Shown here piece after piece: positions 3,905 to 27,579 of a stretch of 27,763 nt of DNA. Position numbers and translations under genes: made by a program. The DNA comes from a virus. The stretch spans positions 1 through 27,763 of the IMG/VR virus record IMGVR_UViG_3300003323_000868; one strand, given 5' to 3'. Position 1 is the first letter of the stretch. Every line of letters begins with the position of its first letter. Under the pieces are notes generated by a model, which saw only the letters and a program-made list of their open reading frames with translations, was not told the DNA's origin and did not search any database.

Positions 3905-4657
3905 ATGAATAATTTAGACATTAAGTCTTTCAGGAAAAAGTATAAATTATCGCAGGAAGATCTCGCAAAAATTGTTGGAACCGGCATTCGAGGAGTTCAA
4001 GGATGGGAGCAGGGCGTTAGAAAAGTACCGCAAAGTGCCATTAAACTCATTGAACAGTATATAGAATCACATAAGGTGCCGGTTGTATCTGGCATTCCTG
4101 ATGTTTTTAAGAACGAAGTGCGGATGCTTGTGCCAAAGAATGCTGATAAGTCCGAATGGCTTACCAACAGTTTCGGCAACACTTTTTTACCGCTCGATGA
4201 TGGGCGTTATCTGATGGAATGCCCGCTGGTAAATGAATATGTCCAGGGCGGCCCCATGGCCGGTTTTGCGGATAATGAATACCTGGAGTCGCTTCCAAAG
4301 CATTCCGTGGTGGTTGATCGCATTCATAGAGGGAGATACCTTTCGTTTCCTATGCGCGGCCACAGTATGGATTATGATGGTCGAGACTACATAGCAGATG
4401 GAGCAATCCTCACTGCCCGGGAATTGAAGAGAGAGCTATGGATAGGATCTAAGCTGCATTTCAATACCAAGAAAGACTATATTATTGAGTGCCTTGAAGG
4501 GCTAATCGTGAAGAGAATCATAGACCATGATGTCAAAAACTACACTATAACCTGCCATTCACTGAATACAGACAAAGAAAAGTATCCGGACTTCGTTGTC
4601 AATCTCAATGAGGTATTGAATATATTTAGTTTAATCAAAGTGGACAACCCAAGATAA
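3905..4657 (+). CDS. S24/LexA-type lysogeny repressor
   Basis: The 250-aa protein has an N-terminal XRE helix-turn-helix (SQEDLAKIVGTGIRGVQGWE, residues 16-35) and a C-terminal S24 autoprotease domain. The cleavage site is Ala119-Gly120 within QGGPMAGFAD. The catalytic serine is Ser154 in MRGHSMDYDG, and the general base is Lys203 in GLIVKRII. All three are present, so RecA-stimulated self-cleavage and prophage induction are expected from family knowledge. The length fits the family. It is divergent from the early operon, with the inverted repeat between. It very likely keeps the phage dormant and may repress its own gene. The ATG is clear; the promoter upstream is not. Confidence 0.9.
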   Translation: MNNLDIKSFRKKYKLSQEDLAKIVGTGIRGVQGWEQGVRKVPQSAIKLIEQYIESHKVPVVSGIPDVFKNEVRMLVPKNADKSEWLTNSFGNTFLPLDDGRYLMECPLVNEYVQGGPMAGFADNEYLESLPKHSVVVDRIHRGRYLSFPMRGHSMDYDGRDYIADGAILTARELKRELWIGSKLHFNTKKDYIIECLEGLIVKRIIDHDVKNYTITCHSLNTDKEKYPDFVVNLNEVLNIFSLIKVDNPR

Positions 4658-4699
4658 AAATCGTGTGTTATAACATGAAGTTAGAGTTGCTACATATTG

Positions 4700-4707
4700 T
4701 ACATTTG
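4700..4707 (+). promoter_or_regulatory. -7 box TACATTTG for the lipoprotein gene
   Basis: TACATTTG at 4700-4707 is a full match to TAnnTTTG, 28 bases before the ATG at 4736. A TTG at 4687-4689 is too close to be a normal -33 element. The box falls inside an upstream in-frame extension of the lipoprotein frame, so that longer start cannot be used from this promoter. An independent promoter suggests expression separate from the late genes, probably in the lysogen. Confidence 0.5.
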
Positions 4708-4735
4708 CAAAACGTCAAGTAAAAACCTTGGAATT

Positions 4736-5113
4736 ATGAGATCGTTATTGATATTCGTAGCTGTTATTACCTTGCTTCAGTCGTGTAAAAAAGAGGATAA
4801 GGGAGAATTAAGGTGCGGCATCTTAAAGGTAACCAAGGAATATAAATTGCATCCTCAGCCTTTCGCTCCAGACTCGGAATTGGTGTACTTTTCGGAAGAC
4901 ACTATCAATTCAGGGACAGTCTATCGATACGAAGAAGAGTTCCAATTTTATTCCAAAATTGGTTACGACGATTTCTTAATGAAAAAAAATAATAGCGCAG
5001 TCGTAGATTATGGCAAGTCAATACGACATTGCTTTGATTCGTTGTCCGGCACTAAGCAGTATTTTGACCATTTAAACGGAGCGCCGTCGGTATCTGTCGC
5101 CCAATGTAAGTAA
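4736..5113 (+). CDS. small phage-encoded lipoprotein
   Basis: From the ATG at 4736 the product is 125 aa. It starts MRSLLIFVAVITLLQSCKKE: a short basic start, hydrophobic core and a lipobox-like LQSC with Cys17, followed by KKEDKGE. Such Bacteroidota lipoproteins are lipid-anchored in the membrane or exported to the surface. The rest is soluble, with aromatic-rich beta stretches, and shows no family I know. An upstream frame to 4697 would hide the signal and overlap the promoter. It is followed 10 bases later by a membrane-anchored gene, so the two may work together. Possible roles are superinfection exclusion or lysogenic conversion (inference only). Confidence 0.65.
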   Translation: MRSLLIFVAVITLLQSCKKEDKGELRCGILKVTKEYKLHPQPFAPDSELVYFSEDTINSGTVYRYEEEFQFYSKIGYDDFLMKKNNSAVVDYGKSIRHCFDSLSGTKQYFDHLNGAPSVSVAQCK

Positions 5114-10577: not shown

Positions 10578-11966
10578 ATGAAAAGGACACATATTTCCTT
10601 TCCTGCGTCCGGGAGTCGTGGATTCGCTCCTAAGATCAGCAGCCGCCGGCTCGGTCATCAGCCCTTTATGAATATCGCCTACCGTTCCGACGGTGGTGAA
10701 GAAGGCGATGCCAAGCAAGCTCTGCTGGATGCCATTAAAAAGCAAGTCGGAGACGAACTGTCCACCCGTGGATACCAGAGCAAGGCCGACCTGGATAATG
10801 CTATTGCTGCCCAGATGAAGCCCTTTGAGGGTATCGACCTGGAAGGGTTGCGTTCATTGTCTGAAGCCAGTAAGGCAAACGGCGGCATTATGGAAGTGCT
10901 CCGTGCCCAGGGAGAAAAAATTGCCGAACTGGAAAAACGTTCCACAGGTGGCGAAGGCCGCGACCTGTCGATCCGTGGGCAGGTGCAAGCATGGCAGGAG
11001 CGCAATAAAGGCGCCCTGGAGAAAATCAAGAATGGACAGAAAGCGGACCTGGAGCCGTTGGAGATTCGCGCCCCGGCTACCATGACGCTCGGAACGTCCC
11101 TGAACAGTTCCGCCTATCTGCCGAACCCGCAAGGGCAACCCGGTATTGTTGACCTGGTTCGCGTACAGCCTACCTTCTGGAATCAGCTTTCCAAAGGCGC
11201 TACCCGCGCCAATCCCTTTTACTGGGTAAACAAAACTAACAAAGAAGGTAATGCCCAGTTTATCGGCGAAGGCGTACTGAAGCCGCTGGCTTCCTTCCAA
11301 CTGGAAACTGAAACCAGCGTACCTAAAAAGGTAGCAGAGCGTATGAAAATAAGTACGGAAATGCTGTATGACTTGGACGCTATGGCCTCCTATATGGAAG
11401 CAGAACTGCGTTATGAAGTGGAAACAGCTGCCAATGCTGCTGTTCTTACTGGCGTTCTGAGCTCTACAAGCCCGGCCGGTATCACAACCATCGCCAGCGC
11501 CTTCAATCTTACTACCATCAGTACCACGAACCCGACAACTGCTGACGTTGTTCGTGCATCTATCGCCCAGATCCGCAGTCTGAACTTCAACGGCGTGATT
11601 ACTGCGTACATGAATCCGATCGATGTCGCCAACATGGACCTGGAAAAAGCCACGGACAGCGGCGTATACATGCTGCCTCCCTTCACTTCCGCCGACAACA
11701 CAGTTGTCAAAGGTGTTCGCATCATCGAGGACAACAACATAGCCGTCGGCTACCTGCTGATCGGGGTGATGGACCTGTATAAGATCCTGATACATGAGGC
11801 ATTCAAGATCATGTGGGGCTGGGAGAATGACGACTTCAGTAAGAACCTGGTGACCGTTATCGGCGAGATGCGATTCCATCAGTTCTACTCAAGCAACCAT
11901 ACCGGCGCCTGGATCTACGACACAATCGCCAACATCAAGGCGGCGATCAGTGGAGGCAACGAGTAA
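10578..11966 (+). CDS. major capsid protein, HK97 fold with scaffold domain
   Basis: The 462-aa product follows the protease by one base. Residues about 40-155 are charged and coiled (LLDAIKKQVGDEL, IMEVLRAQGEKIAELEKRST), typical of the delta or scaffold domain removed on maturation. The mature part probably begins near EIRAPATMT (162-170) and holds the capsid-family core: PFYWVNKTNKEGNAQFIGEG, SVPKKVAERMKISTEMLYD, MEAELRYEVETAANAAVLTG and an end with WGWENDDFSKNLVTVIGEMR. The cleavage point is inferred. A long antisense frame exists here but is a codon-bias shadow. Confidence 0.9.
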   Translation: MKRTHISFPASGSRGFAPKISSRRLGHQPFMNIAYRSDGGEEGDAKQALLDAIKKQVGDELSTRGYQSKADLDNAIAAQMKPFEGIDLEGLRSLSEASKANGGIMEVLRAQGEKIAELEKRSTGGEGRDLSIRGQVQAWQERNKGALEKIKNGQKADLEPLEIRAPATMTLGTSLNSSAYLPNPQGQPGIVDLVRVQPTFWNQLSKGATRANPFYWVNKTNKEGNAQFIGEGVLKPLASFQLETETSVPKKVAERMKISTEMLYDLDAMASYMEAELRYEVETAANAAVLTGVLSSTSPAGITTIASAFNLTTISTTNPTTADVVRASIAQIRSLNFNGVITAYMNPIDVANMDLEKATDSGVYMLPPFTSADNTVVKGVRIIEDNNIAVGYLLIGVMDLYKILIHEAFKIMWGWENDDFSKNLVTVIGEMRFHQFYSSNHTGAWIYDTIANIKAAISGGNE

Positions 11967-12006: not shown

Positions 12007-12189
12007 ATGCAAGAAAACAAAACAGTAGATCTTACCCAAAGGGTTAAGCTCTACGCCCCGGCAGGGGCAAAGCACCACAAAGAGGGAGAAGAGACCCTGG
12101 TAGGTGCATTATTGGCTGACAAGTTTCGCGCCATGGGTTACACTGACGCTCCTGCGGCAAAGAGCGCAAAGAAAGGAGGTAACGTATGA
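12007..12189 (+). CDS. small hypothetical protein after the capsid gene
   Basis: This 60-aa basic protein begins MQENKTVDLTQRVKLYAPAG and ends in KSAKKGGNV. It has no recognised motif. It lies 40 bases after the capsid gene and overlaps the next start by four bases (ATGA). It could be a head decoration or assembly aid; its function is not known. Confidence 0.5.
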   Translation: MQENKTVDLTQRVKLYAPAGAKHHKEGEETLVGALLADKFRAMGYTDAPAAKSAKKGGNV

Positions 12190-12596
12190 AACGGATAATC
12201 CTCCTCACAAGCCTTCTGGCCGGCATGTTTTGCACAGCCCAGGCTCAGACCTTATCCACTCCTGCAGTGGATACCCTGAGTGGTACAGACACTATCAGCC
12301 TGGTTACTCCACTGAACTACTTCAGCGGCACTGACGGTATTTTCTCCGCATCAGTTGCTGCGACGAAGATATCCGGCACCACAAGTGCAGTGTGTGTGCT
12401 CCGGGCAACAGTGGATGGTATTACCTACCTACCGGTAACCGGCACTTCGTCGGATACGTTCACTCTGACCAATGTCGCTACACGCCAGGTAAGGAACTGG
12501 TACATCGGCAATACAAAAGTCAAGGCGGCGCAGATTTACATTCTGTCTACCGGGTCTCAGTCCACACAAGTAAAAGGGTACTTCATCAAAAAGTAA
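12186..12596 (+). CDS. secreted protein in the head module
   Basis: The 136-aa product begins with a Sec-type signal peptide: MKRIILLTSLLAGMFCTAQA, followed by QTLSTP, with cleavage likely after the AQA. The rest is a threonine- and serine-rich beta protein (SGTDTISLVTPL, SGTTSAVCVLRATV, YIGNTKVKAAQIYIL), like an immunoglobulin-like or decoration fold. It is a normal member of the operon between the capsid and connector genes, with an ATGA overlap upstream and the next start 3 bases after its stop. A signal peptide on a head-region gene is unexpected for a virion protein assembled in the cytoplasm. It may be a host-modifying factor, a virion decoration that escapes export, or a decoy. Confidence 0.7.
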   Translation: MKRIILLTSLLAGMFCTAQAQTLSTPAVDTLSGTDTISLVTPLNYFSGTDGIFSASVAATKISGTTSAVCVLRATVDGITYLPVTGTSSDTFTLTNVATRQVRNWYIGNTKVKAAQIYILSTGSQSTQVKGYFIKK

Positions 12597-15593: not shown

Positions 15594-16218
15594 TTTACCC
15601 TTTGTCCTGTTCGAGGATTGTCTGCTCAACGACAGGCTGTCTTCCCTGATCAGGTCCAGGTACAAAATAGTACAGCAGGAACGCCAATACTATAAGCCGG
15701 AAGTCCCGGATTATGAACTGCAGCAGGCTTGGATGAATATCTATAGCCAATACTGCGAACGCCTGGGAGATAATAACCTCATGCATGCTACCAGGGTCAT
15801 GGGCGGAATACATGTATATGATTCCAAGATACAACGAGTGACTACCATTATTCAATGCCTGAGACAATGGTATGATGTACGCCAGGCGGAAATGCTTGAG
15901 CGGGCATTGCCAGGAGCGAAAGTGGATCATTCGTCCCTGGAAGCATACGAGAAAAGCCTGAGCCGGGCAGAAACACTGCTCAAAAAAGACATCATCGCAA
16001 GGGATACGCTGGTTCAGGAATATCAGGATCTACAAAAGAAAGCCGCATCCGGCTCCAGAATGACCGGCGAGTACTTCACTGAAATGCTAGTTCACGTCAG
16101 CAAGCATGAAGGATACCATGTAAGAAAAAAAGATATCACTGTAGGGGAATACTGCGCCTATGTCAAGACATACAGAAACCACATTGAAACTGAACTGCTT
16201 AAACGCAAGCGTAAATAA
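15541..16218 (+). CDS. putative tail assembly chaperone-like protein
   Basis: The open frame extends back to 15394, but its first part overlaps the 71-aa gene and has poor composition. The more likely start is the ATG at 15541 or 15544, preceded by GGAG; this gives about 225 residues. The protein starts MMCSPEGPQSNIYHSVDDLP and has a helical C-terminus with many Arg and Lys (RKKDITVGEYCAYVKTYRNH). It lies immediately upstream of the tape measure, the site of tail assembly chaperones in siphoviruses. It overlaps the tape-measure ATG by one base. The chaperone role is inferred from position. Confidence 0.5.
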   Translation: MMCSPEGPQSNIYHSVDDLPFVLFEDCLLNDRLSSLIRSRYKIVQQERQYYKPEVPDYELQQAWMNIYSQYCERLGDNNLMHATRVMGGIHVYDSKIQRVTTIIQCLRQWYDVRQAEMLERALPGAKVDHSSLEAYEKSLSRAETLLKKDIIARDTLVQEYQDLQKKAASGSRMTGEYFTEMLVHVSKHEGYHVRKKDITVGEYCAYVKTYRNHIETELLKRKRK

Positions 16219-19200
16219 TGCCTGAAGTTGTAGAGGAAATAGTAGGGAAAAAGGCGTACGACCAGATCGACGCACTGACCGATCGGTTGCTGAAGGCGGC
16301 CGGGCTTATTGATGATCTAAACTCCAAAGGATCGAAGATGGAAATCGATCTTAAAGGAGCAAAAACCATCAATGAGGCTATTGCCGGGATGTCGGCACTG
16401 AAGCAAAATCAGGACGCTCTCGCAGCTGCCAACATTGATTACCAGAAGACGATCCGGGATACAGATAAGCTATTGGTCAACTTCGGCACCAACTTGGAGG
16501 AAAATATCCGGGTTCAGCTCAGTATGAAGACCGAGTTGAAAGGCGTAAAGGACGAAATGAAGAACCTGGCCAAAGACACAGATGTTTATGGAAGGATAAA
16601 TGAAAGGGTTCGGGACAGACTTGTTGAACTCACCAAGCGGGAAAAGGAGCTATCTGCATCCATTCGGGAGCAGGAGCAGCTCATAAAATCTCAGGCTAAG
16701 GCGAACGTGGCCGCAGCAGGGTCTATAGACCAGGTTTCCGCAAAGCTGGACCAATTTAAAAATATATTCCGGCAATTATCCCAGGCAGAAAGAGAAGGTG
16801 CAATAGGGGAACAGCTTTTGAAGTCTGTTCAAGAATTGGACCCAACAGTCAAAGGGTTCAATGCTACAATTGGAGACTTTCAGCGGAATGTGGGCAACTA
16901 TGCCGGTACTTTCTCTGGGGCATTTTCCGTACTTAACACTGAGCTTTCGGAGGTTCGGACCAAACTGGCCGGCATGAGCTCTTCTGATGCCGGGTTTGAC
17001 AGCCTGACCAAACAGGAGCAGGCCCTGGCCAAGATCACTGAAGGCTTAACTCAGGCTTTCGGATCAACAAAGCAGGAGCTCAGGGAGTTCCAGGAAGCAG
17101 CAAAGCAGTTAGGGCTTACACTTGGGTCTGACAGCGAATTATTCGCCCAATTTGTTGCGCAAGTTGGTAAAGCCAAGGATGAGTTGGGCGACCTGCAGGC
17201 GACCGTGGATTTCAATGCCTCCGACACAAAATACCTGGATGGCACCATTGAGGGCATAAATGCTGTGGCCGGCGCCTATGGTGTCGCAGAAGGTGCCGCT
17301 ACCCTATTTGGTGCCTCCCAGGAAGATTTGCAGCGTCAGATGGTTGTCCTGCAGGCGGTAATGACCATAACTAACGGCCTGCAACAGATACAGATTGCGC
17401 TACAGTCTGAATCTGCACTGATGATGACCCTTCTGTCTACTCAGACCAAGATCCTGGCCGCTGCCAAAGCGGTCGAAGCCTTTATTGATAAACTGGCTAC
17501 AGCTGCAACCCGGGCCAATACTCTTGAAACTATTAAAAACCGGGCTGCAAAGATAGCTGCCACTATAGCTACCGGAGCGCAAACTGCAGCCATGAGTCTA
17601 TACACCTTTGTGACCAATGGAGCTACCGTGGCGACGAAAGTCCTTCGGGCGGCATTGCTGGCCACTGGTATTGGAGCGGTAATAGTTCTTTTGGGAACAG
17701 CAATTTCGTATATGTCTTCTATGAGTAAGGAAACAGACAAGGCGGCAAGTAGTGTGCGGGATTTTTCAAGCGCCCTTGAAAATCTGAATGACATTTTTGA
17801 TCGGGTTAATGCTAATCTGGAACGCAATACAAAGGTGGCGATTGCTGCGGCTAAGGCCCGTGGGGCATCTGAAGAAGAGATCTTGGCCATAGAGCGTAAA
17901 GCATTGGAAGCCAGAATTGAAAATCTGGAAGAGCAGAAGGGCATACTTGATAAGAACTACAATGATCAGAAGCAATCAGCCGAAAATCTCAAGAAGATCG
18001 AGCAGGACCGGGTTAAACTAACCCAACAGATCGCTGATGCTCGGGCTGAAATACAGATTAAGGAATATAATACCCAGGAGCAGGCCAGGAAGAAAAGCGA
18101 ACAGGCAGCTAAAAAAGCCAGCGATGACCGGAAGAAACTTCTTGAAGAAGAGTTAAAAAATACCGAAGCTCTGCAAAAGGAACTAGCAAAACGGCGGATT
18201 GAGCTATTGACCCCTTCAGAAGAAGAAATTTCTTCTATGGTTGAGGACATCACCCGTATTGTCAATTCAAAATCCGGGAAGGTATACCTGAATGCTGGGA
18301 TTGCCGTGAACCAGGAAGAAGTTGCCGCAGACCTGGCAAAAGTGGATGCTGCGACATCCCAAAAACTTGCCAGCATAGAGAGGGCGTATGCTGAAGGCTT
18401 GTACAAGTCCTACAAGGAATATGAGAAAGACAAGACCAACGCCACCATTGAAGGCAGCCAAGCCAGGTATCAGGTAGAGATTAATGGCATAAAAAAACTA
18501 CTCGCATACTTGCCGACCAGCATTTCCGAACAATTAACATTTAACAAGCAACTTAACGATCTGGAGCTGAAGCAGTTGGATGAAACCAATAAGCTGAAGC
18601 TAGACAAAGAAAAAGAGGCTGCAGAAAAGAGGAAGGATGTACGGAAGAAGTTGGCGGACTACGAAAAGCAAATTGGAGAGGAAACATTTCAAACTGTCGT
18701 GGCATTCATAAATGCCACCTTTGAGAAGCGCCGCCAGGGTCTTGATAATGAGCAAAAGCAGATCGACCGGAATAAAGAATCGGAGATCAATGCTATTAAC
18801 GCATCCATGCTTACCCAGGAGGAAAAGCAACGGCGGGTAGCAGAGGCTGAAATCCGGGCTGCGGCCAAGACTCAAGAGATCGAGCGCAAAAAGATAGAAC
18901 TACAGCGCAGGCAGGCGGCATTTGATAAAGCAGTCACCATCGCAAAGATTATAGGAGATACCGCGTCAGCAGTAGTAGAAGCCTTGCCTAATATCCCGTT
19001 GTCAATAGCTATTGGCGTTATTGGTGCTTTACAGTTGGCTCGGGCAGTAGCCGCCCCGCTCCCCCAGTTCGCGGAAGGTACGGATAATGCACCTGGTGGA
19101 CTGGCCAGGGTATCTGAGCGCGGTCAGGAATTGGTAATTGAGCCAGATGGATCTACCTGGTTGACCCCTAAACAAGATTCAATAGTATATCTCCCTGCTC

Positions 19201-19439
19201 ATTCAAAGGTAATTCCAAACGATGAGTTGATCCGCATGACCAACTACGGCATGATGAATGGTATGGCTGTAATGCCTCACTATAACGATGATGGTCCGAT
19301 TATGAAGGAAGTAGTGTCAGAAATGAAAGCCTCTAATGTATTGAACCGGAAGATATTATCTGAACTGAGCAAAAAGAAATCATCCAATGTAAATGTATAC
19401 ACGGGATGGAGTGATTATGTGCACAAAATAACACATTAG
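16218..19439 (+). CDS. tape measure protein
   Basis: At 1073 aa this is the longest gene. It has long charged coiled regions (about 1-200 and 540-850), a hydrophobic block ATGIGAVIVLLGTAISYM near residues 480-500, and a helical middle. The C-terminal motif FAEGTDNAPGGLARVSERGQ, then ELVIEPDGSTWLTPKQDSIV and YLPAHSKVIPNDEL, is typical of phage tape measures. The length sets the tail length, which by the usual 1.5 angstrom per residue rule suggests about 160 nm; this is an estimate. The ATG overlaps the previous TAA. Its TAG overlaps the next gene's GTG. Confidence 0.85.
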   Translation: MPEVVEEIVGKKAYDQIDALTDRLLKAAGLIDDLNSKGSKMEIDLKGAKTINEAIAGMSALKQNQDALAAANIDYQKTIRDTDKLLVNFGTNLEENIRVQLSMKTELKGVKDEMKNLAKDTDVYGRINERVRDRLVELTKREKELSASIREQEQLIKSQAKANVAAAGSIDQVSAKLDQFKNIFRQLSQAEREGAIGEQLLKSVQELDPTVKGFNATIGDFQRNVGNYAGTFSGAFSVLNTELSEVRTKLAGMSSSDAGFDSLTKQEQALAKITEGLTQAFGSTKQELREFQEAAKQLGLTLGSDSELFAQFVAQVGKAKDELGDLQATVDFNASDTKYLDGTIEGINAVAGAYGVAEGAATLFGASQEDLQRQMVVLQAVMTITNGLQQIQIALQSESALMMTLLSTQTKILAAAKAVEAFIDKLATAATRANTLETIKNRAAKIAATIATGAQTAAMSLYTFVTNGATVATKVLRAALLATGIGAVIVLLGTAISYMSSMSKETDKAASSVRDFSSALENLNDIFDRVNANLERNTKVAIAAAKARGASEEEILAIERKALEARIENLEEQKGILDKNYNDQKQSAENLKKIEQDRVKLTQQIADARAEIQIKEYNTQEQARKKSEQAAKKASDDRKKLLEEELKNTEALQKELAKRRIELLTPSEEEISSMVEDITRIVNSKSGKVYLNAGIAVNQEEVAADLAKVDAATSQKLASIERAYAEGLYKSYKEYEKDKTNATIEGSQARYQVEINGIKKLLAYLPTSISEQLTFNKQLNDLELKQLDETNKLKLDKEKEAAEKRKDVRKKLADYEKQIGEETFQTVVAFINATFEKRRQGLDNEQKQIDRNKESEINAINASMLTQEEKQRRVAEAEIRAAAKTQEIERKKIELQRRQAAFDKAVTIAKIIGDTASAVVEALPNIPLSIAIGVIGALQLARAVAAPLPQFAEGTDNAPGGLARVSERGQELVIEPDGSTWLTPKQDSIVYLPAHSKVIPNDELIRMTNYGMMNGMAVMPHYNDDGPIMKEVVSEMKASNVLNRKILSELSKKKSSNVNVYTGWSDYVHKITH

Positions 19440-21595
19440 TGAGCCACCTGCCGAAATATATCGTATACCTGAAGCGTGATGCCGTGACGTACTATAAGTA
19501 TATCAATGGTATCGTGACTACCACCGGTACGCCATATGCCATTCCGACTTTACCGATCGGTTGGAAGGATACGCAGATCCGTTGGGTTCGTAATGTGAAA
19601 TATCATGGCATTTCCCGTACCCTGTCGACTCCGTACCAATTCGTCCGGGAGGCGGCTGAGATATTGCGTAAGGTGAAGTATACAGAAGGCGGGGAAGGTC
19701 GCTGCACTATGGTGATCATGATGCGTAATGAGGATTGGACCTATTCCCAGCTATATTCCGGTGAAATTGACTTCTCCACCAGTAAAGACGGCGTTGTTGT
19801 ATTCAAGGCCAATATCCTGGATAATAGTATCGAGTCAAAGATCAAGGCTAATGAAAATACGCCATATGAAATACCGGTAAATGACACTACCGGCACAATA
19901 ACGCTTACCGGCCTAATGCTGGAATCAAAAGCCAACTTCATAACTATAGCCGGCAGCAATATAAACGGAGTAATCAAAAACGCCTTCACCTTCCAAGAGG
20001 GAGATTATACGGTCACCCAGAATATGGGACAGGGTATAGATACAAATCTCGGGGGGGGATATGATATAGTAGGGAACTTTTGGACCATACCAATGTATGA
20101 TCAGAATTCGTACCTGATAGAGGCCCTGAGAACGATGGATGTAAGATGTACATTCAATCAACGATTTGTTGTAGAAAAGGCCGGCGGGGGCTCTGTTTCA
20201 GTGAAGGTGCAGTTCCTTGTCGTGAACAAAGATCGTGAAGTCACGGCCGCTGACGGACCGCCGGCATCGGTGCCCATAACCGCCGATGGGATTACTGAAA
20301 AGATCATGGGTGGCGGGACCTCCTACTTTACCATTAATCCAGGAGATCGCGTATACTTAGCTGCGAAAATCATCGTAAACAGCGGATCCCCTGATTACAG
20401 TCTTTCCTATGACGGGAATGGCGACTCGCCTACCTCAGCACCCAATTATTGGGCGAAAGTAGAATCCCGCTGGCAATATGAGACTACTACCCATTATGCC
20501 ATCCGTCATTGTGACGCGTATGACGAACTGATGAAGAAGGTAGTCGGATCGTCAACAATCGTAAGCTACAGTGCTTATTTGCGTAGTACTGCGCAACACG
20601 AAGACAACATTCCGTACATGAATTTCCTTTTACCTGGTGATTCTATACGCCGTTTGCCGGACGCCAAACTGAAGGTAACCCTTTCAGACTTCTTTCAGGA
20701 TGCAACAGGCCGAGCCTGCCTGGGTATGGGGCCGGACAATACCGGTACCATCCGTATGGAGCCATTTAAGTATTGGTATGACAAGGACATTATCATTGCG
20801 GATTTGGGGGACATTACTGACCCGGATGCTGAGTTGGAAGATGCAAATGACATCATATACGATAATATCAAGGTTGGCCAGCCAGAGCAGACCTACGACA
20901 ACATCAACGGCAGGTACGAATACAACCAGGAATCCCGGTTCCGGGGCCCGGTGACCAGGGTAAGCAATGAACTTGACTTAACCGGCAAATTTCGCCGGGA
21001 TAGCTTCGGAATAGAGGCGCAGCGTCAGAATCTTTCAGGTAAGACAACTACGGACAGCTCCAGCGACAATGACACTTTTATTGTCTGCACGAGGCTCATT
21101 GCGGGATTCCTGGTACAGCGCCGGCCATTGTTTAGCTCCGGCGCCACGGCTTCCGGAATCCCTTATGTAGAACAGGGGTATGAATATGACCTGACACCGA
21201 AACGGGACCTGCTGCGCAATAAGCCCAGGCTGGCTGCCTCCTACTTCCTGCGAAATGGACAGACAATTACCTTCCAGACCACTGATAAGAATACAGAACT
21301 ACAGGTGATGTTCGAGGGGGGGCGGCCAAATATAGTGGAAAAAGCAAACCTGGCAGTAAGTGATCTTGGAACGCCCTATTGCCTTCCTTGCAATTTCAGG
21401 TTTAAAGCCAGATCCCCTAAAAATCTGCTTTACCTAATGGATCTCTATAGCCGGGGTTGCTTTAAGTTCAGATGGAAGGGGGTCAACCTGAAGGGGTATC
21501 CAATGGATGTGGGTCTCAACCTGAGCACAAATGGAGAATATGACTTCTGGCTGCGCCTCACTGAGGACAGCGATATTTCAAAACTGCACAAATAA
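19439..21595 (+). CDS. large tail-tip/baseplate-like protein
   Basis: The 718-aa product starts with GTG, overlapping the stop of the tape measure (TAGTG). It begins SHLPKYIVYLKRDAVTYYKY and contains beta-rich stretches such as KVKYTEGGEGRCTMVIMMRN, GEIDFSTSKDGVVVFKANIL and PLFSSGATASGIPY. The last third has GCFKFRWKGVNLKGYP and NLSTNGEYDFWLRLTEDSD. Its place right after the tape measure fits a distal-tail or baseplate hub protein. No catalytic site is visible. Confidence 0.55.
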   Translation: MSHLPKYIVYLKRDAVTYYKYINGIVTTTGTPYAIPTLPIGWKDTQIRWVRNVKYHGISRTLSTPYQFVREAAEILRKVKYTEGGEGRCTMVIMMRNEDWTYSQLYSGEIDFSTSKDGVVVFKANILDNSIESKIKANENTPYEIPVNDTTGTITLTGLMLESKANFITIAGSNINGVIKNAFTFQEGDYTVTQNMGQGIDTNLGGGYDIVGNFWTIPMYDQNSYLIEALRTMDVRCTFNQRFVVEKAGGGSVSVKVQFLVVNKDREVTAADGPPASVPITADGITEKIMGGGTSYFTINPGDRVYLAAKIIVNSGSPDYSLSYDGNGDSPTSAPNYWAKVESRWQYETTTHYAIRHCDAYDELMKKVVGSSTIVSYSAYLRSTAQHEDNIPYMNFLLPGDSIRRLPDAKLKVTLSDFFQDATGRACLGMGPDNTGTIRMEPFKYWYDKDIIIADLGDITDPDAELEDANDIIYDNIKVGQPEQTYDNINGRYEYNQESRFRGPVTRVSNELDLTGKFRRDSFGIEAQRQNLSGKTTTDSSSDNDTFIVCTRLIAGFLVQRRPLFSSGATASGIPYVEQGYEYDLTPKRDLLRNKPRLAASYFLRNGQTITFQTTDKNTELQVMFEGGRPNIVEKANLAVSDLGTPYCLPCNFRFKARSPKNLLYLMDLYSRGCFKFRWKGVNLKGYPMDVGLNLSTNGEYDFWLRLTEDSDISKLHK

Positions 21596-21597
21596 CC

Positions 21598-23475
21598 ATG
21601 GCAACCAAGATAGTAATTATACCACCCATTAATCCGATCCGGTTCGTCCGGGCTGGGAAAGTGCTGCCCGCCGAATTCAATTACAAACAGTTTGACTCAT
21701 ATTGGCTGAATGAAAGCCTGCTGGACTTCCAGGAGAATACATATTATAAAATACTGGTACAGTATCTTGACCTGCTTTGGACACAGATACATCACACCGG
21801 CACCCATGGAGCGGATATCTTCGTTGTGGACTGTGAAGGAAATACTGTTGCCTTCCACCCGAGCCGATTCCTGAAAGCGGCAAAGACATTCCCAGGAAAC
21901 ACATTCGACAACCACGGTGATTTTACCACGCCAATACAACTTAATACCTACACAACCAGGGTATCCTTCGCTGACCCGCTACTGCAGGATGACAAAACAT
22001 ACTTCCTGAAGATCGAGGTGTACTTCAATGTTGAGAAAACAGACAAGGTAATATACTGGTCTGAGCCGATTCATTACCGGACAAAACACAGGAATACCCT
22101 CGCTGTGGATTATTCCCACGAATCCAACGATAATGATAAGGGAGTGTTCTGGACAAATATTACCGTGCCGGTATGGAATATGACATACCGTCTGCGTATG
22201 CCGGGATATATAGAAGAGTTCACGCCTCAGACACACGATACTTTTATGGAGGATCAGCTGACCGACCTGCGGCTGCTGAGTTCATTCGTATTCCGGAAAT
22301 TCAAGATTTTCGGGGGGTATACAGACGGCCTGTCGGATTATCATATTGACAAGTTGAACCGGGCGTTCTCCTGCAGCAATACCAAAGTTGATGATATTTT
22401 ATTCGTAAAGGAAGATGGTGCCCAAATAGACATTCAGAGAAACGGACAGCGGCAGATCAAACGGGCTGAGCTGGAGATCAGGGAGTACTATGGTGCGGAT
22501 GCTGGGGTAGATATCGTTTCGCTCGATGACGGAGGAATAATTGTTGATCCTGGGGAAACAGGAGGATCAGGGTTTCTCATAGTAGACCTGGGAACCGGCC
22601 CGATTGAACTTACCGGGCCTGTCAGTCTGACAACTGAAGGGGAATGGGATGCCTATGTTGATCAGATCAATGAACTGATCGCCGGAGAAGAAGGAGAGGA
22701 AGGTGACGAATACAATACCTACCCTTTTGGAATTACCGGGATGGTATCCTATGATCCAGAACTTGGGTTTATATATACACCCGGGGAGGATGATCAGGCA
22801 ACACCCGCTTTCTCCTTCTTTCTGCTTTCAACAGACATACAGATGCCGGCAGATGTCGAACAGGATCACTTCATCACTTACTATTTCGTCGGAGGGACAC
22901 ACATAGTAGACTGGGGAGACGGCAATTTAGAAGTGATCAATTATACCGCTGCGGGAGGTCAATATCAGGAGGTTACGCACCAATATGGTACTACTGACGT
23001 ATTCGACATGAGGATATACCATGACAATACCGGAATGGAGAAGTTGAAAATCCTAAATGAGGATGGAATACTCGCAGACTTTACAGGCAATTTCCCTCAG
23101 ACACTACAGGTAATGCATATGGAAAACGGAAATATCCCTACCCTTACAATGGCAATTTTGGAAGATGCTGCTGGTAGCCTAACAACCCTGATCTTCAAAA
23201 ACTGTGGTATACAAGATGTGAATGCAACAGCATTTGATCTGCAGACTTGGACTGGCGGTTTAGTGCATATCGATCTGTCGGAAAATGAGCTCACCACAAG
23301 TGATGTAGACGATTTTCTTATTGCCTTGGTATCTAACACGATGTTAACCGGCGGAGGTTACATTAATCTGTCTACACAGGCGACACCGGCTCCGCCAAGT
23401 GGTGATTCCAATGCTGTACGCGCCACCTTGACTGAAATTTCCTGGACACAAATTTATGACGAAGAAACACCATAA
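21598..23475 (+). CDS. tail-tip protein with WGDGN and leucine-rich repeats
   Basis: The 625-aa protein begins MATKIVIIPPINPIRFVRAG and has a beta-rich N-terminal two thirds. An acidic linker GEEGEEGDEYNT follows near 363-374. VDWGDGNLEVINYT around 438 is the WGDGN turn common in Bacteroidota surface-repeat proteins. After that come leucine-rich-repeat-like units: FPQTLQVMHMENGNIPTLTM, SLTTLIFKNCGIQDVNATAF and LVHIDLSENELTTSDVDDF. It is a likely tail-surface or receptor-contact protein. LRR at the end of a phage tail protein is uncommon in my experience. Gene order and length support the tail role. Confidence 0.6.
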   Translation: MATKIVIIPPINPIRFVRAGKVLPAEFNYKQFDSYWLNESLLDFQENTYYKILVQYLDLLWTQIHHTGTHGADIFVVDCEGNTVAFHPSRFLKAAKTFPGNTFDNHGDFTTPIQLNTYTTRVSFADPLLQDDKTYFLKIEVYFNVEKTDKVIYWSEPIHYRTKHRNTLAVDYSHESNDNDKGVFWTNITVPVWNMTYRLRMPGYIEEFTPQTHDTFMEDQLTDLRLLSSFVFRKFKIFGGYTDGLSDYHIDKLNRAFSCSNTKVDDILFVKEDGAQIDIQRNGQRQIKRAELEIREYYGADAGVDIVSLDDGGIIVDPGETGGSGFLIVDLGTGPIELTGPVSLTTEGEWDAYVDQINELIAGEEGEEGDEYNTYPFGITGMVSYDPELGFIYTPGEDDQATPAFSFFLLSTDIQMPADVEQDHFITYYFVGGTHIVDWGDGNLEVINYTAAGGQYQEVTHQYGTTDVFDMRIYHDNTGMEKLKILNEDGILADFTGNFPQTLQVMHMENGNIPTLTMAILEDAAGSLTTLIFKNCGIQDVNATAFDLQTWTGGLVHIDLSENELTTSDVDDFLIALVSNTMLTGGGYINLSTQATPAPPSGDSNAVRATLTEISWTQIYDEETP

Positions 23476-23478
23476 TAT

Positions 23479-23856
23479 ATGATAGACTGTCATTGTATAA
23501 CACACGTTTCGCCTACTTGGGAGTCAGAAAGTATAGCCATCTTCAAACTTTTGGAGCAGGCTCGCTTCCCGCTAAGTATACCCATTAAGGATGCCTTTGA
23601 TATGATCGTGAAGATTGCGAAATCTGGCAATGCACCCCCGCCAACACTCGCATTTGAGCACGTGACTGGCACCTCAATAACTAATTCGGGCCTATCCGGC
23701 CGCTTAATCTCAGCCATAATAGTTGATGACTATGCGAAAAGTACAGGATTCCGAAAGACAGGGGCAACGCCGGATGATCAGCTTGAGAGCGATACAATGG
23801 AAATAACAGACGGGACCCCTATGAATGATTCAGACGTAGTAATAATTTTCAAATGA
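23479..23856 (+). CDS. small tail-associated protein
   Basis: The 125-aa product begins MIDCHCITHVSPTWESESIA and shows a beta-rich second half (TLAFEHVTGTSITNSG, DDYAKSTGFRKTG). It lies between the tail-tip and fibre genes; its stop overlaps the fibre start (ATGA). A small tail adaptor is possible. No family is known. Confidence 0.45.
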   Translation: MIDCHCITHVSPTWESESIAIFKLLEQARFPLSIPIKDAFDMIVKIAKSGNAPPPTLAFEHVTGTSITNSGLSGRLISAIIVDDYAKSTGFRKTGATPDDQLESDTMEITDGTPMNDSDVVIIFK

Positions 23857-25886
23857 GAAACATACTAGTGGCATTACTCCTGCTGCCGATAATTGCAAGA
23901 GCTCAGACCCCGATATACCAGGGGCGACCCGATGTCTGGACCCAGGCACGGGGAATGATGGGGGCAGATTCAGGCATAGTCATAACACCATCAGACACAT
24001 TCGCACATAATCGCCCGGCCGGCACTATAAGATTGAATGCAGGTGACTACCGGATGTACATCTTCAATGGATCATGGTGGAATCCTGCAAGCTCCACGCT
24101 TGATAGTATGGATGTGCTGGGCCTTATGACATGGAGTAATATACAGGATAAGCCAGCTACCTTTCCGCCACAAAGCCATACCCATCCAATAACGCAGATT
24201 ACTGACCTCCAGGATAGTCTGAACAAAAAAGTAAGCCTGCAGGCCACTATAGGGACGCCGGAGCCTGGGAATATAAATATATCAGGGTCTGGCCAGGCCC
24301 GCAGATATAATTCGGATACCATAACTATCAGCCGGCAAAGTGCGTTCTCCATAACCGATACATTCACCTTTATTGGTGATTCCTGGACGAAAGGAAACGG
24401 ATCTACCAACGGAGGATATGTGGGACAGTTTGCTCTGCTCAGCGGTGCTACAGTGATTAATAAAGGCCTGGCAGGATCAACAATGCAATACGGAACTCCA
24501 CCCAATCCGTTTGCCGGCGAAAGCCAGGCTCTGGAAAACAGGTTGGGTGACATCCCGGTAAAAAGACCCGGGCTTAAATACCTGATAAGCCAGGCATTAT
24601 TAAATGACTTCGGGTATAATGGTGGGAACTATGACACAGTTGGTGCGAAAGCCGCGATGCGGGTTTGGGTTAATAATGCCATCTCAAAAGGATGGAGTAC
24701 TAACGAAATATTGTTCATAGGCCCTGGATATGCAAATGCCACGGGGTACGCGGCCTATGCAGCGCTTAGCGGGAACCCGGCTCCCAATGTTATACGACAC
24801 CTGCAGTATGTGGATGCCGCAAGAAAAGCATGTCAGGAATACCCGGGCTTAAGGTTCATAGATCTCTATGAATTTATGCGTTCAAACGGAGGGAATGCAT
24901 TGCTGTCTGGTGATGGCTTCCACCCTAATAATACCGGAGCAGTATTGATCGCAAATTATCTGTACAATATGTTGAATGGGTCAGGATATATGTATAATCC
25001 CGGCCAAACAGTGCTTGCTGGAGAAACCAATGTCAGCAAAATGGTAATAGCCGCCCAGCCTACAGGTAGTTTATCGCCATCTCTACGTTTTGGTATAACA
25101 AATGACACTACGGCCGCGCGTATACCTGGATCTGTAGAGTTCAAAAGGGATAAAGTCTATGTAACAGATTCTTTCGGCGTTAAATGGGAAGCGTTCTTAG
25201 TCCCTCTCGGCTATAGGACAAAAGACACCTCCCAACTTATATGGAATAATGCAACTGCCACGGCCCAAAGCGCAGCTATTAATGTTACAGGAAATGTGAT
25301 CAGTGGGGGCAGTGTGCTAGCTGGCGGATCTGCTGGCGTTCTTACAGTCGGTACTAATTCGCCATCCGGGAGAGCATTTTTTCAGATGCAAACAGCAGGG
25401 CAAACGGATGATATAGAGTTCAATACTGTCCCTGCTAACAATTACGGAAGAATTTGGTTCAGAAGTGCGGCAACTGATCACGCATGGATCTTGTGGCCAG
25501 GATCTTCCTATGCAGGCAGCGGTTTATTTCAGGCCGGAGGATTTAATTTTTCTAATAGGAAGTCAGGTGGCCCCTTGACCCTGAATACAACGGGAACAGG
25601 TATTATTAACCTGGCGCCGGGAGGGGACAACCTATCGAACATAAAATTAACGGCTACTACTACCGGCGTAGGTATTGGCACTACCTCTCCTAATGCCTCT
25701 GCGGCATTACAGATTAACAGTACAACCCAGGGGTTTGTGCCATCCAGGATGACCGCAGCGCAAGCGAGTGCTATCGCCTCTCCACAAGAAAGCCTCATTA
25801 TATATGTAACGGACACTAATGGAACCTTCACCAGTAAAGGTTGGTGGGGATTCAATGGCTCTGCATGGGAAAAACTTAACAACTAA
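23853..25886 (+). CDS. SGNH-hydrolase tail fibre with signal peptide
   Basis: The 677-aa protein starts MRNILVALLLLPIIARAQ, a Sec signal with cleavage probably after ARA. WSNIQDKPATFPPQSHTHPI, followed by TQITDLQDSLNKK (around 95-126), is the pattern of phage tail-fibre tails. An SGNH/GDSL hydrolase domain follows: block I IGDSWTKG with Ser177, block II Gly208, block III Asn251, block V DGFHPN with Asp354 and His357. Such enzymes remove acyl groups from polysaccharides or lipids. The C-terminus has GIGTTSPNASAALQINSTTQ, GFVPSRMTAAQASA and GWWGFNGSAWEKL, common in Bacteroidota tail fibres. It would deacetylate host surface glycans during adsorption; substrate is unknown. Confidence 0.8.
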   Translation: MRNILVALLLLPIIARAQTPIYQGRPDVWTQARGMMGADSGIVITPSDTFAHNRPAGTIRLNAGDYRMYIFNGSWWNPASSTLDSMDVLGLMTWSNIQDKPATFPPQSHTHPITQITDLQDSLNKKVSLQATIGTPEPGNINISGSGQARRYNSDTITISRQSAFSITDTFTFIGDSWTKGNGSTNGGYVGQFALLSGATVINKGLAGSTMQYGTPPNPFAGESQALENRLGDIPVKRPGLKYLISQALLNDFGYNGGNYDTVGAKAAMRVWVNNAISKGWSTNEILFIGPGYANATGYAAYAALSGNPAPNVIRHLQYVDAARKACQEYPGLRFIDLYEFMRSNGGNALLSGDGFHPNNTGAVLIANYLYNMLNGSGYMYNPGQTVLAGETNVSKMVIAAQPTGSLSPSLRFGITNDTTAARIPGSVEFKRDKVYVTDSFGVKWEAFLVPLGYRTKDTSQLIWNNATATAQSAAINVTGNVISGGSVLAGGSAGVLTVGTNSPSGRAFFQMQTAGQTDDIEFNTVPANNYGRIWFRSAATDHAWILWPGSSYAGSGLFQAGGFNFSNRKSGGPLTLNTTGTGIINLAPGGDNLSNIKLTATTTGVGIGTTSPNASAALQINSTTQGFVPSRMTAAQASAIASPQESLIIYVTDTNGTFTSKGWWGFNGSAWEKLNN

Positions 25887-25897
25887 TACTAAACAAT

Positions 25898-26263
25898 ATG
25901 AAAAAGGTAATTATCACACTGGCAATCCTCGCCACAACAACTTTTGCCCATGCGCAAACAACCTACTTCGTCCGGGACACCACCGCCCAGTATCCGGAAT
26001 TTCAAAGCCGGGTAAAGATAGCGGCGATCCAGGCTGCCAGTACAAAACTTTCAGGGGCTCCGGCGTTACGGGTGCGACAATATGCCCAAATCGTTATCTC
26101 AGATGCTTCCGGCGCTTCTTGGTTGGAGGCCTTGACTTACGGAGTCCTGACGGTATCGAATATTAAGATTACCAGCTCCGATGCTGAACTGCTCAGCGCC
26201 GTAAACAGCATATTCGACAGGTACGCTTATGCGTATTACAAGGAACTTCCGGAGAACAACTAA
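25898..26263 (+). CDS. secreted small protein after the fibre gene
   Basis: The 121-aa product has a Sec signal peptide MKKVIITLAILATTTFAHAQ, then TTYFVRDTTAQYPEFQSRVK. The mature part is about 100 residues, helical with a YAYAYYKELPENN end. It starts 12 bases after the fibre gene and precedes the membrane (lysis) proteins. It may be a periplasmic phage factor or a virion accessory; no family is recognised. Confidence 0.6.
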   Translation: MKKVIITLAILATTTFAHAQTTYFVRDTTAQYPEFQSRVKIAAIQAASTKLSGAPALRVRQYAQIVISDASGASWLEALTYGVLTVSNIKITSSDAELLSAVNSIFDRYAYAYYKELPENN

Positions 26264-26289: not shown

Positions 26290-26637
26290 ATGGACATTAA
26301 AAAACAATTCGCTGAGTGGGGCATCAATGCTATTGCAGCAGTAGCAGCATTCTTTGGCGCTATTATATACCTCACCGTTAGCGAAAAGGAGTTTCGCTTC
26401 AGAGAATCCATAGGGCAGGTAATCTCTGCTCTGGCATTTGCCGGCTGGGGAACGGAATTTGTAGTCAAATGGCTCCGCCAGGAATCCAGCCCGTCAGTTT
26501 GTGGCCTTTTGGGGCTCGCTATTGGCATATGCGGGTTATTCGCCGCAAAAGGAGTTATCAAGCTAGGCAAGCGATTCGAGGCAGACCCGGCAGCATTTTT
26601 AACCAAAAAAGGCAAAAACGATGTGGCAGATAATTAA
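26290..26637 (+). CDS. putative holin, three membrane spans
   Basis: A 115-aa protein, MDIKKQFAEWGINAIAAVAA, with hydrophobic segments at about 11-29, 42-58 and 68-88 and a charged C-terminus (KRFEADPAAFLTKKGKNDVA). Short size, three spans and location after the tail genes are typical of class I holins. The name is inferred. The overlap with the next gene is 17 bases. Confidence 0.55.
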   Translation: MDIKKQFAEWGINAIAAVAAFFGAIIYLTVSEKEFRFRESIGQVISALAFAGWGTEFVVKWLRQESSPSVCGLLGLAIGICGLFAAKGVIKLGKRFEADPAAFLTKKGKNDVADN

Positions 26638-26920: not shown

Positions 26921-27579
26921 AACGGCCGGTAATTGCTCTGGTGCTGATTTGGCTGGGCCTGTTCTTGGCCTTTATCGGCTGCGCTATGCTGATATCCTGC
27001 CAGGCCCCGAAGCCAGGCGTATGCTCCGGTAAGCAGCAGCGGCGGGCACTGCACCACCTGAATAAGGCCCTTGACCTGTGCCCTGGTGCCGTGGCCGAAA
27101 AGGCGGCGATCATGTACCCGCCACGGGTGTATGATAGTATCCGTACCGAGTTCTTGCCCGGAAAAGTGGAACGTGACACCGTAGACCGGTATGTTGACTG
27201 CGACAGCATAGTAAATGCGGCGGCTGTTGCGCAGGCCCGGGGAGAAAAGCCGGCAGTGGATCCAAAGAAGGTGCCATACCAGGAGATCATAACCAGGCAG
27301 CGGGATACGATCAACCAGTTTCGGAACCGACATGTAGCGAATACGGCAGAAATAGAGGGGCTGAAATGGCGCCTGCAGCAAACGCAAGATGAAAGTGCGG
27401 GTAAGGATATCGCTATCAGCAAAAAGGATCAGCAGATTAAAACGAAGGACCGGCAGATAAAAGACCTGCAGGGCGACAAATGGCGGTTGCGCCTTTGGCT
27501 ATTGGGCCTGGCCGGCTACCTGGTTGTAAGCCGGGTAATTAAATGGAAGTTCCCGGTGATCGGCAAGTTCTTGCCGTAG
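26917..27579 (+). CDS. candidate unimolecular spanin (lipobox plus C-terminal membrane helix)
   Basis: The start is the ATG at 26917, overlapping the previous TGA and preceded by GAGGAGGGG; a longer upstream frame would overlap the membrane-protein gene. The 220-aa product begins MKRPVIALVLIWLGLFLAFI, continues GCAMLISCQAPKPG with a lipobox-like LISC (Cys28), then a soluble domain and coiled helix RQRDTINQFRNRH to KKDQQIKTKDRQIKDLQ (about 128-186). The C-terminal segment LRLWLLGLAGYLVVSRVIKW is a membrane helix. A lipid-anchored N-terminus in the outer membrane and a C-terminal inner-membrane helix is the layout of a unimolecular spanin, which fuses the two membranes at lysis. Similar proteins in Bacteroidota phages are usually unannotated. 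Confidence 0.55.
   Translation: MKRPVIALVLIWLGLFLAFIGCAMLISCQAPKPGVCSGKQQRRALHHLNKALDLCPGAVAEKAAIMYPPRVYDSIRTEFLPGKVERDTVDRYVDCDSIVNAAAVAQARGEKPAVDPKKVPYQEIITRQRDTINQFRNRHVANTAEIEGLKWRLQQTQDESAGKDIAISKKDQQIKTKDRQIKDLQGDKWRLRLWLLGLAGYLVVSRVIKWKFPVIGKFLP

Follow-up and report, generated by a model that had tools for sequence, protein, structure and literature searches.

In the textbook view, the whole assembly of tailed phages occurs inside the host cytoplasm. Export of virion proteins is a feature of filamentous phages, in which the coat proteins pIII and pVIII are Sec-exported and processed by signal peptidase ahead of their incorporation in the virion; these phages, however, assemble at the inner membrane without lysis, whereas the phage considered here is a tailed one with holin-mediated lysis. 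In Bacteroidota, most substrates of signal peptidase I (SPI) carry a Q immediately after the cut (Q-rule), which is turned into pyroglutamate; across species, this applies to a mean of 71% of the predicted substrates (PMC5837995). Q-rule SPI proteins were also described in P. gingivalis phages (Nixviridae), with five genes of unassigned function, for which a role in modifying the outer membrane of the host was proposed (PMC10367356). These proteins have the same type of signal as the fibre analysed here, but they were not assigned to virion structure. Hence, Q-rule signal peptides of phages were already known; what appears to be new, relative to the open-licence literature, is their link to virion structure and their fixed positions in the late module. 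In the same literature we found no precedent for extracytoplasmic fibre assembly or for exported fibres in tailed phages.

Consecutive tail genes with signals, most of them annotated as virion components from MS/MS, also occur in three Cellulophaga phages. Precisely, phi10:1 has five consecutive distal tail genes (gp091-gp095), each with a Q-rule signal, and gp091-094 are annotated from experimental MS/MS; in phi19:1 (gp101-gp104) and phi18:3 (gp085-gp087) all the products carry signals, with F instead of Q at +1 in gp104, and all are MS/MS-annotated. We counted in total 11 signal-bearing MS/MS-annotated virion proteins from three phages of two families (10 with Q-rule signals and one with F at +1), the MS/MS status being that of the record annotation and not of peptides, so that signal removal in virions is not readable from it. 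According to a later paper, in which signal peptides go unmentioned, the earlier structural proteomes of this phage collection were obtained from purified particles (PMC11946311), and no remark on signal peptides of Cellulophaga tail proteins was present in the literature that we examined. Some of these proteins are fused to polysaccharide enzymes, including pectate lyase, where the fibre analysed here has an SGNH domain instead, and homology between them and this fibre was not detected. Outside the tail module, phi10:1 and phi19:1 encode Q-rule proteins of 104 and 119 aa, respectively (L037:23531-23845 and L038:22972-23331).

We analysed the whole of a virus record of 27,763 bases (hereafter, the window), whose host group is Bacteroidota and whose gene order is of the siphophage type: terminase, portal, protease, capsid, head completion, tape measure, distal tail, fibre and holin. 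The features considered are listed in Table 1, in which a slash marks the predicted cut. The parts of the tail interior (tape measure, distal tail and tip) have no signal, whereas two Q-rule signals further to that of the fibre, absent from the original prediction, were found in the late region (12186-12596 and 25898-26263). For the product of 25898-26263 there was no family match in Pfam or PHROG. Adjoining the repressor gene (3905-4657) there is a lipoprotein-like ORF (4697-5113, LLQS/CKKED), a candidate lysogenic-conversion or superinfection-exclusion lipoprotein.

Table 1. Features of the late region of the window and of the fibre ORF
Feature	Coordinates	Strand	Evidence or remark
Major capsid protein	10578..11966	+	tblastn to annotated major capsid proteins
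60-aa ORF	12007-12189		between capsid gene and 12186-12596
136-aa cement-like protein, Q-rule signal MKRIILLTSLLAGMFCTAQA/QTLST	12186..12596	+	between capsid and head-completion genes
Tail tape measure protein, signal absent	16218..19439	+	PHROG matches
Distal-tail structural protein, signal absent	19439..21595	+	phrog_15220 virion structural, E=2e-33
Tail-tip protein, signal absent	21598..23475	+	position; homologues in relatives
Tail-module ORF	23479-23856	+	directly 5' of fibre ORF
Tail fibre ORF, 677 aa	23853..25886	+	signal peptide, tail-fibre repeat, SGNH hydrolase, beta-rich shaft, C-terminal knob
Signal peptide, residues 1-17, MRNILVALLLLPIIARA	23853..23903	+	predicted SPI cleavage before Q18 (Q-rule)
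Tail-fibre repeat, PTR-like, residues 90-128, HTHPITQITDLQDSL	24120..24236	+	Pfam PTR sub-threshold, PHROG, tblastn
SGNH/GDSL hydrolase domain, residues 173-369	24369..24959	+	Pfam PF13472, PF00657
C-terminal knob, residues 603-677 (GFVPSRMTAAQ...)	25659..25883	+	common to Q-rule-secreted Bacteroidota chromosomal proteins
121-aa protein, Q-rule signal MKKVIITLAILATTTFAHA/QTTYF	25898..26263	+	between fibre and holin
Holin	26290..26637	+	phrog_2359 holin, E=3.8e-6
Spanin-like membrane/coiled-coil protein	26932..27579	+	inferred by eye from sequence; weak PHROG match

The original prediction had described the fibre ORF as a protein with a Sec signal, a tail-fibre repeat and a full SGNH catalytic set, and its coordinates, strand and length were correct. 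The ATG of this ORF overlaps the stop of the ORF 23479-23856 (AAATGA, an ATGA junction), as one would expect for translationally coupled tail genes, and the second in-frame Met is only at residue 35, therefore the signal belongs to the natural ORF; on these two grounds a mis-called start was ruled out. The repeat was confirmed by matches of residues 90-128 to PHROG tail families (E=3e-6 to 7e-5) and to mycobacteriophage minor tail proteins (tblastn, E=4e-6), with a Pfam PTR match of 20.6 bits, under the gathering score of 27 bits. The protein has thus the repeat or trimerisation modules of tail fibres and its gene lies distally in the tail operon, after the tape measure, distal-tail and tip genes and ahead of the holin.

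The SGNH set also held when checked position by position. In fact, Lipase_GDSL_2 (PF13472) matched residues 173-363 above its cut-off (E=3.9e-11) and PF00657 matched with E=5.7e-5; block I is represented by F-I-G-D-S177-W, with S177 as the nucleophile, the Gly of block II (G208) and the Asn of block III (N251) of the oxyanion hole are both present, and the DxxH of block V is D354-G-F-H357. The blocks I, II, III and V are those of the PF13472 family, including its phage tail-fibre members phrog_5240 and phrog_8443, from which the window fibre differs by the Sec signal ahead of the domain. We considered the fibre, on the strength of these motifs, as a putative SGNH hydrolase that would act on an ester such as acetyl; an acetylated glycan as substrate is a guess. 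The structure model of the fibre has a mean pLDDT of 36.5, too poor for a structure search, and its alternation of helices and strands at residues 170-374 fits an SGNH fold; searching by sequence gave no credible match to a solved structure for this domain. No close relatives of the fibre were found in viral contigs.

The N-terminus of the fibre (MRNILVALLLLPIIARA/QTPI) is a textbook Q-rule SPI signal of Bacteroidota, with a positively charged n-region, a hydrophobic core (9-residue hydrophobicity of 3.2) and an A-x-A site followed by Q at +1 (ARA/Q). Two other routes were ruled out: a lipoprotein (SPII), as Q is at +1 and a Cys or lipobox is absent, and a cargo of type IX secretion (T9SS), as there is no NCBIfam match to a sorting domain and the C-terminus is the knob. 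We scored signals by a home-made rule-based script, and not by SignalP, considering as genes the longest ORFs. Among 943 genes of Bacteroidota phages, we observed 34 Q-rule signals, the expectation from shuffled N-termini being 3.0, and the known false positives of the detector (G026, 289 aa; G037, 213 aa; G040, 130 aa) agree with this estimate. Moreover, Q represents 3.8% of residues, yet Q at +1 recurs on many unrelated signal-bearing proteins, at a frequency well beyond that given by shuffling. In lambda, mycobacteriophage Saintus and Pseudomonas phage D3 the late regions had no Q-rule signals; they contain two non-Q signal-like proteins, Lom and the protein in the Rz position.

In order to collect relatives we used terminase matches in viral contigs, and about 30 of the longer records were read. 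The position of the signals was analysed in 25 long records, the window included, considering as late module the 24 kb from the terminase. Q-rule signals were present in 37 of the 775 genes of the late module versus 3/637 elsewhere (odds 10.6, p=3e-7), and 18 of the 25 records had at least one of them. The signal-bearing genes fall in two slots, one beside the capsid gene (slot A) and the other in the distal fibre position before the lysis genes (slot B). The slot-B proteins range from about 180 to 1021 aa and for the most part are mutually unrelated, therefore the signal is recurrent and not inherited with one gene; a single inherited fibre gene behind the pattern was ruled out in this way. 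An SGNH domain occurs in four of them, i.e. the window fibre and those of G010, G036 and G037. Several independent relatives (L002:2700-3938, L015:1588-2832, L034:8276-9526, and also G028, G031, G038 and L083) have the portal gene antisense to the large terminase gene, which is unusual for a late operon.

The pattern has its exceptions. No Q-rule signals were found in the tail modules of phi12:1, phi38:1, crAss001 (first 48 kb), B40-8, 11b, snusmum9-1 and Arctus_1, hence export is unnecessary for fibre assembly in general, and signals on late-gene products are a common strategy and not a universal one. Among cellular genomes, the only relative by TerL was one distant Elizabethkingia prophage, with no Q-rule signals in the stretch examined.

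Slot A is occupied by one protein family, with a signal in 16/16 aligned members (the window protein 12186-12596 and 15 homologues, 19-32% identical to it; e.g. L032:13160-13567, L033:2403-2840 and L034:4717-5484, among others). The homologue in phage Pan5, which has the signal, is annotated as 'cement protein'. The window protein was modelled as a beta-sandwich (pLDDT 73), with a TM of about 0.5 to a TNF-like lectin and lower values to phage and virus jelly rolls, while by sequence there was no credible match to a solved structure; as support for a cement-like protein the model is supportive but weak. Its position beside the capsid gene, the Pan5 annotation and the model are compatible with a putative role in capsid decoration. 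The O-glycosylation motif D(S/T)x, considered as a possible independent sign of a stay outside the cytoplasm, was enriched in slot A, but so was the reversed motif, and in slot B the enrichment was not significant. Pan5 (Pseudanabaena phage, L045, ON968456) was reported from a cyanobacterium; its Q-rule signals are of the Bacteroidota type, and it has capsid-adjacent, tail and distal-tail genes in common with the phage group of the window. It may thus have a true host, or an ancestry, in Bacteroidota, although high Q-values are also found in a few cyanobacteria.

The main rival to a virion fibre is a secreted or surface esterase that works outside the virion, with borrowed fibre modules, editing the surface glycan of the producing cell so as to exclude superinfection, to free progeny from cell debris or as lysogenic conversion. 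In favour of this reading, the export signal is genuine and the knob is common to chromosomal proteins secreted under the Q-rule; lambda offers a parallel in Lom, an exported protein whose gene adjoins that of the tail fibre J. The Q-rule proteins of P. gingivalis phages, of unassigned function, were read in a similar way (PMC10367356). Also, the slot-A gene is sometimes antisense: it lies in this orientation between terminase and portal in six relatives (G010, G012, G034, L082, L014 and L018), an arrangement that resembles an independently expressed cargo gene. (An antisense slot-A gene is also listed under the labels L014, L018, L029, L031, L082 and L144.) However, the tail-end slot of the window has no other full fibre candidate, the protein does carry the tail-fibre repeat and, in the three Cellulophaga phages, the records list signal-bearing distal tail proteins among the virion components. 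We regard an esterase outside the virion as unlikely, though a serious competitor, and membership of the window fibre in the virion as probable, by analogy with the Cellulophaga proteins. The same annotations challenge the premise of the original prediction that a tail protein should remain in the cytoplasm: given these proteins, 'exported' and 'virion fibre' are not necessarily alternatives, and of the meanings that had been offered for the signal, export was the right one.

Between phages, the signal of the pectate-lyase tailspike showed 0 nonsynonymous versus 4-7 synonymous changes in 19 codons, and for the slot-A signals most pairs had dN well below dS. These comparisons show purifying selection on the signals of the tested phage homologues, the signal of the window fibre, which is without close homologues, lying outside the test. 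The signal could instead be a relic of a recruited host surface-protein gene, ineffective late in infection, with the fibre assembled in the cytoplasm as is the rule in tailed phages. The homology of the knob to secreted host proteins would agree with such an origin, as would phi17:2 gp050, in which a homologous fibre body has an ordinary N-terminus with no signal; against it there are the selection on the phage homologues and the recurrence, on unrelated proteins, of an intact motif like A-x-A/Q, so that we consider a relic improbable. Fibre N-termini normally bear the attachment site, and the different N-terminal segment that replaces the signal in phi17:2 could also be read as the counterpart of a hydrophobic N-terminus kept in the virion, either as an anchor packing the fibre into the tail tip or for insertion in the host membrane. 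An anchor, however, needs neither a signal peptidase site nor the Q that follows it, and Q at +1 is found on far more unrelated proteins than shuffling would give; retention of the segment seems to us very improbable. A cryptic signal, as was also suggested originally, or a chance one was judged unlikely from the shuffle control, the consistency with the Q-rule and the selection, with signals maintained in the tested homologues and recurring on unrelated proteins at two slots. We conclude that the signal of the fibre is very probably genuine and used.

The same order of Q-rule signal, SGNH domain and knob was found in a prophage of Bacteroidota with a contractile tail (tail sheath, tape measure and baseplate hub); the last gene of its tail operon encodes a signal-bearing SGNH fibre (L189:9516-11381, 621 aa). 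This fibre is 30% identical to that of the window and all five catalytic residues (S177, G208, N251, D354 and H357 of the window fibre) are conserved in the alignment; unlike the window fibre, it has no detectable tail-fibre repeat and it belongs to an unrelated tail module. When the window fibre was compared to Bacteroidota genomes, 49/396 matched, nearly all in the knob segment, and 10 of 12 closed chromosomal ORFs with the knob had a Q-rule signal. Given the knob on such secreted proteins, it is likely that phage fibres and surface proteins of the host have exchanged modules, in one direction or the other. In one chromosomal stretch (L190:3586-14488), five neighbouring genes encode products of about 690-720 aa with the phage-fibre knob, three of the five with Q-rule signals; these genes may represent an array of host surface proteins with a relationship to phage fibres.

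The best reading, in our opinion, is that the window fibre is exported by Sec, cleaved and joined to the virion at or after lysis. Inference gives good support to export together with virion membership; for the whole chain, i.e. a genuine and used signal, virion membership and late attachment jointly, our confidence is modest, leaning in favour. Late in infection, the fibre preprotein would enter the Sec channel of the host, signal peptidase I would cut it after A17 and the exposed Q18 would be cyclised to pyroglutamate by the host glutaminyl cyclase. The mature fibre would then fold and trimerise, presumably in the periplasm or at the cell surface, while tails would be built fibre-free in the cytoplasm. 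The two pools would mix upon opening of the envelope by holin, endolysin and spanin, and the fibre would attach to the tail tip last, in an extracytoplasmic step. On the next cell, the knob would bind a surface glycan and the SGNH domain may remove from it an ester group (acetyl, for instance). In vitro, preformed particles are bound by decoration proteins and by tail fibres or spikes, such as lambda gpD, T4 fibres and P22 tailspike. The signal-bearing parts are of the kinds able to join finished particles in other phages. Export followed by attachment is, of the accounts that use all the evidence, the simplest one.

We extend this account only tentatively, and with somewhat less than even confidence, to many tailed phages of Bacteroidota, in which assembly would be split, with heads and tails made in the cytoplasm and the receptor-binding fibres and the capsid cement-like protein exported by Sec, processed by the signal peptidase and glutaminyl cyclase of the host and added during or after lysis. 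Prior export of the outermost parts would mean that assembly ends outside the cytoplasm. In that case, the virion fibres of such phages would start with pyroglutamate, e.g. pGlu-TVEGTVGSDGSL... in Cellulophaga phages, and an annotation that equates 'signal peptide' with 'not a virion protein' would misread these parts. The exported parts could also undergo modification by periplasmic enzymes and be shared between co-infecting phages, and the pools of fibre and cement protein could act on the host or on its neighbours before lysis.
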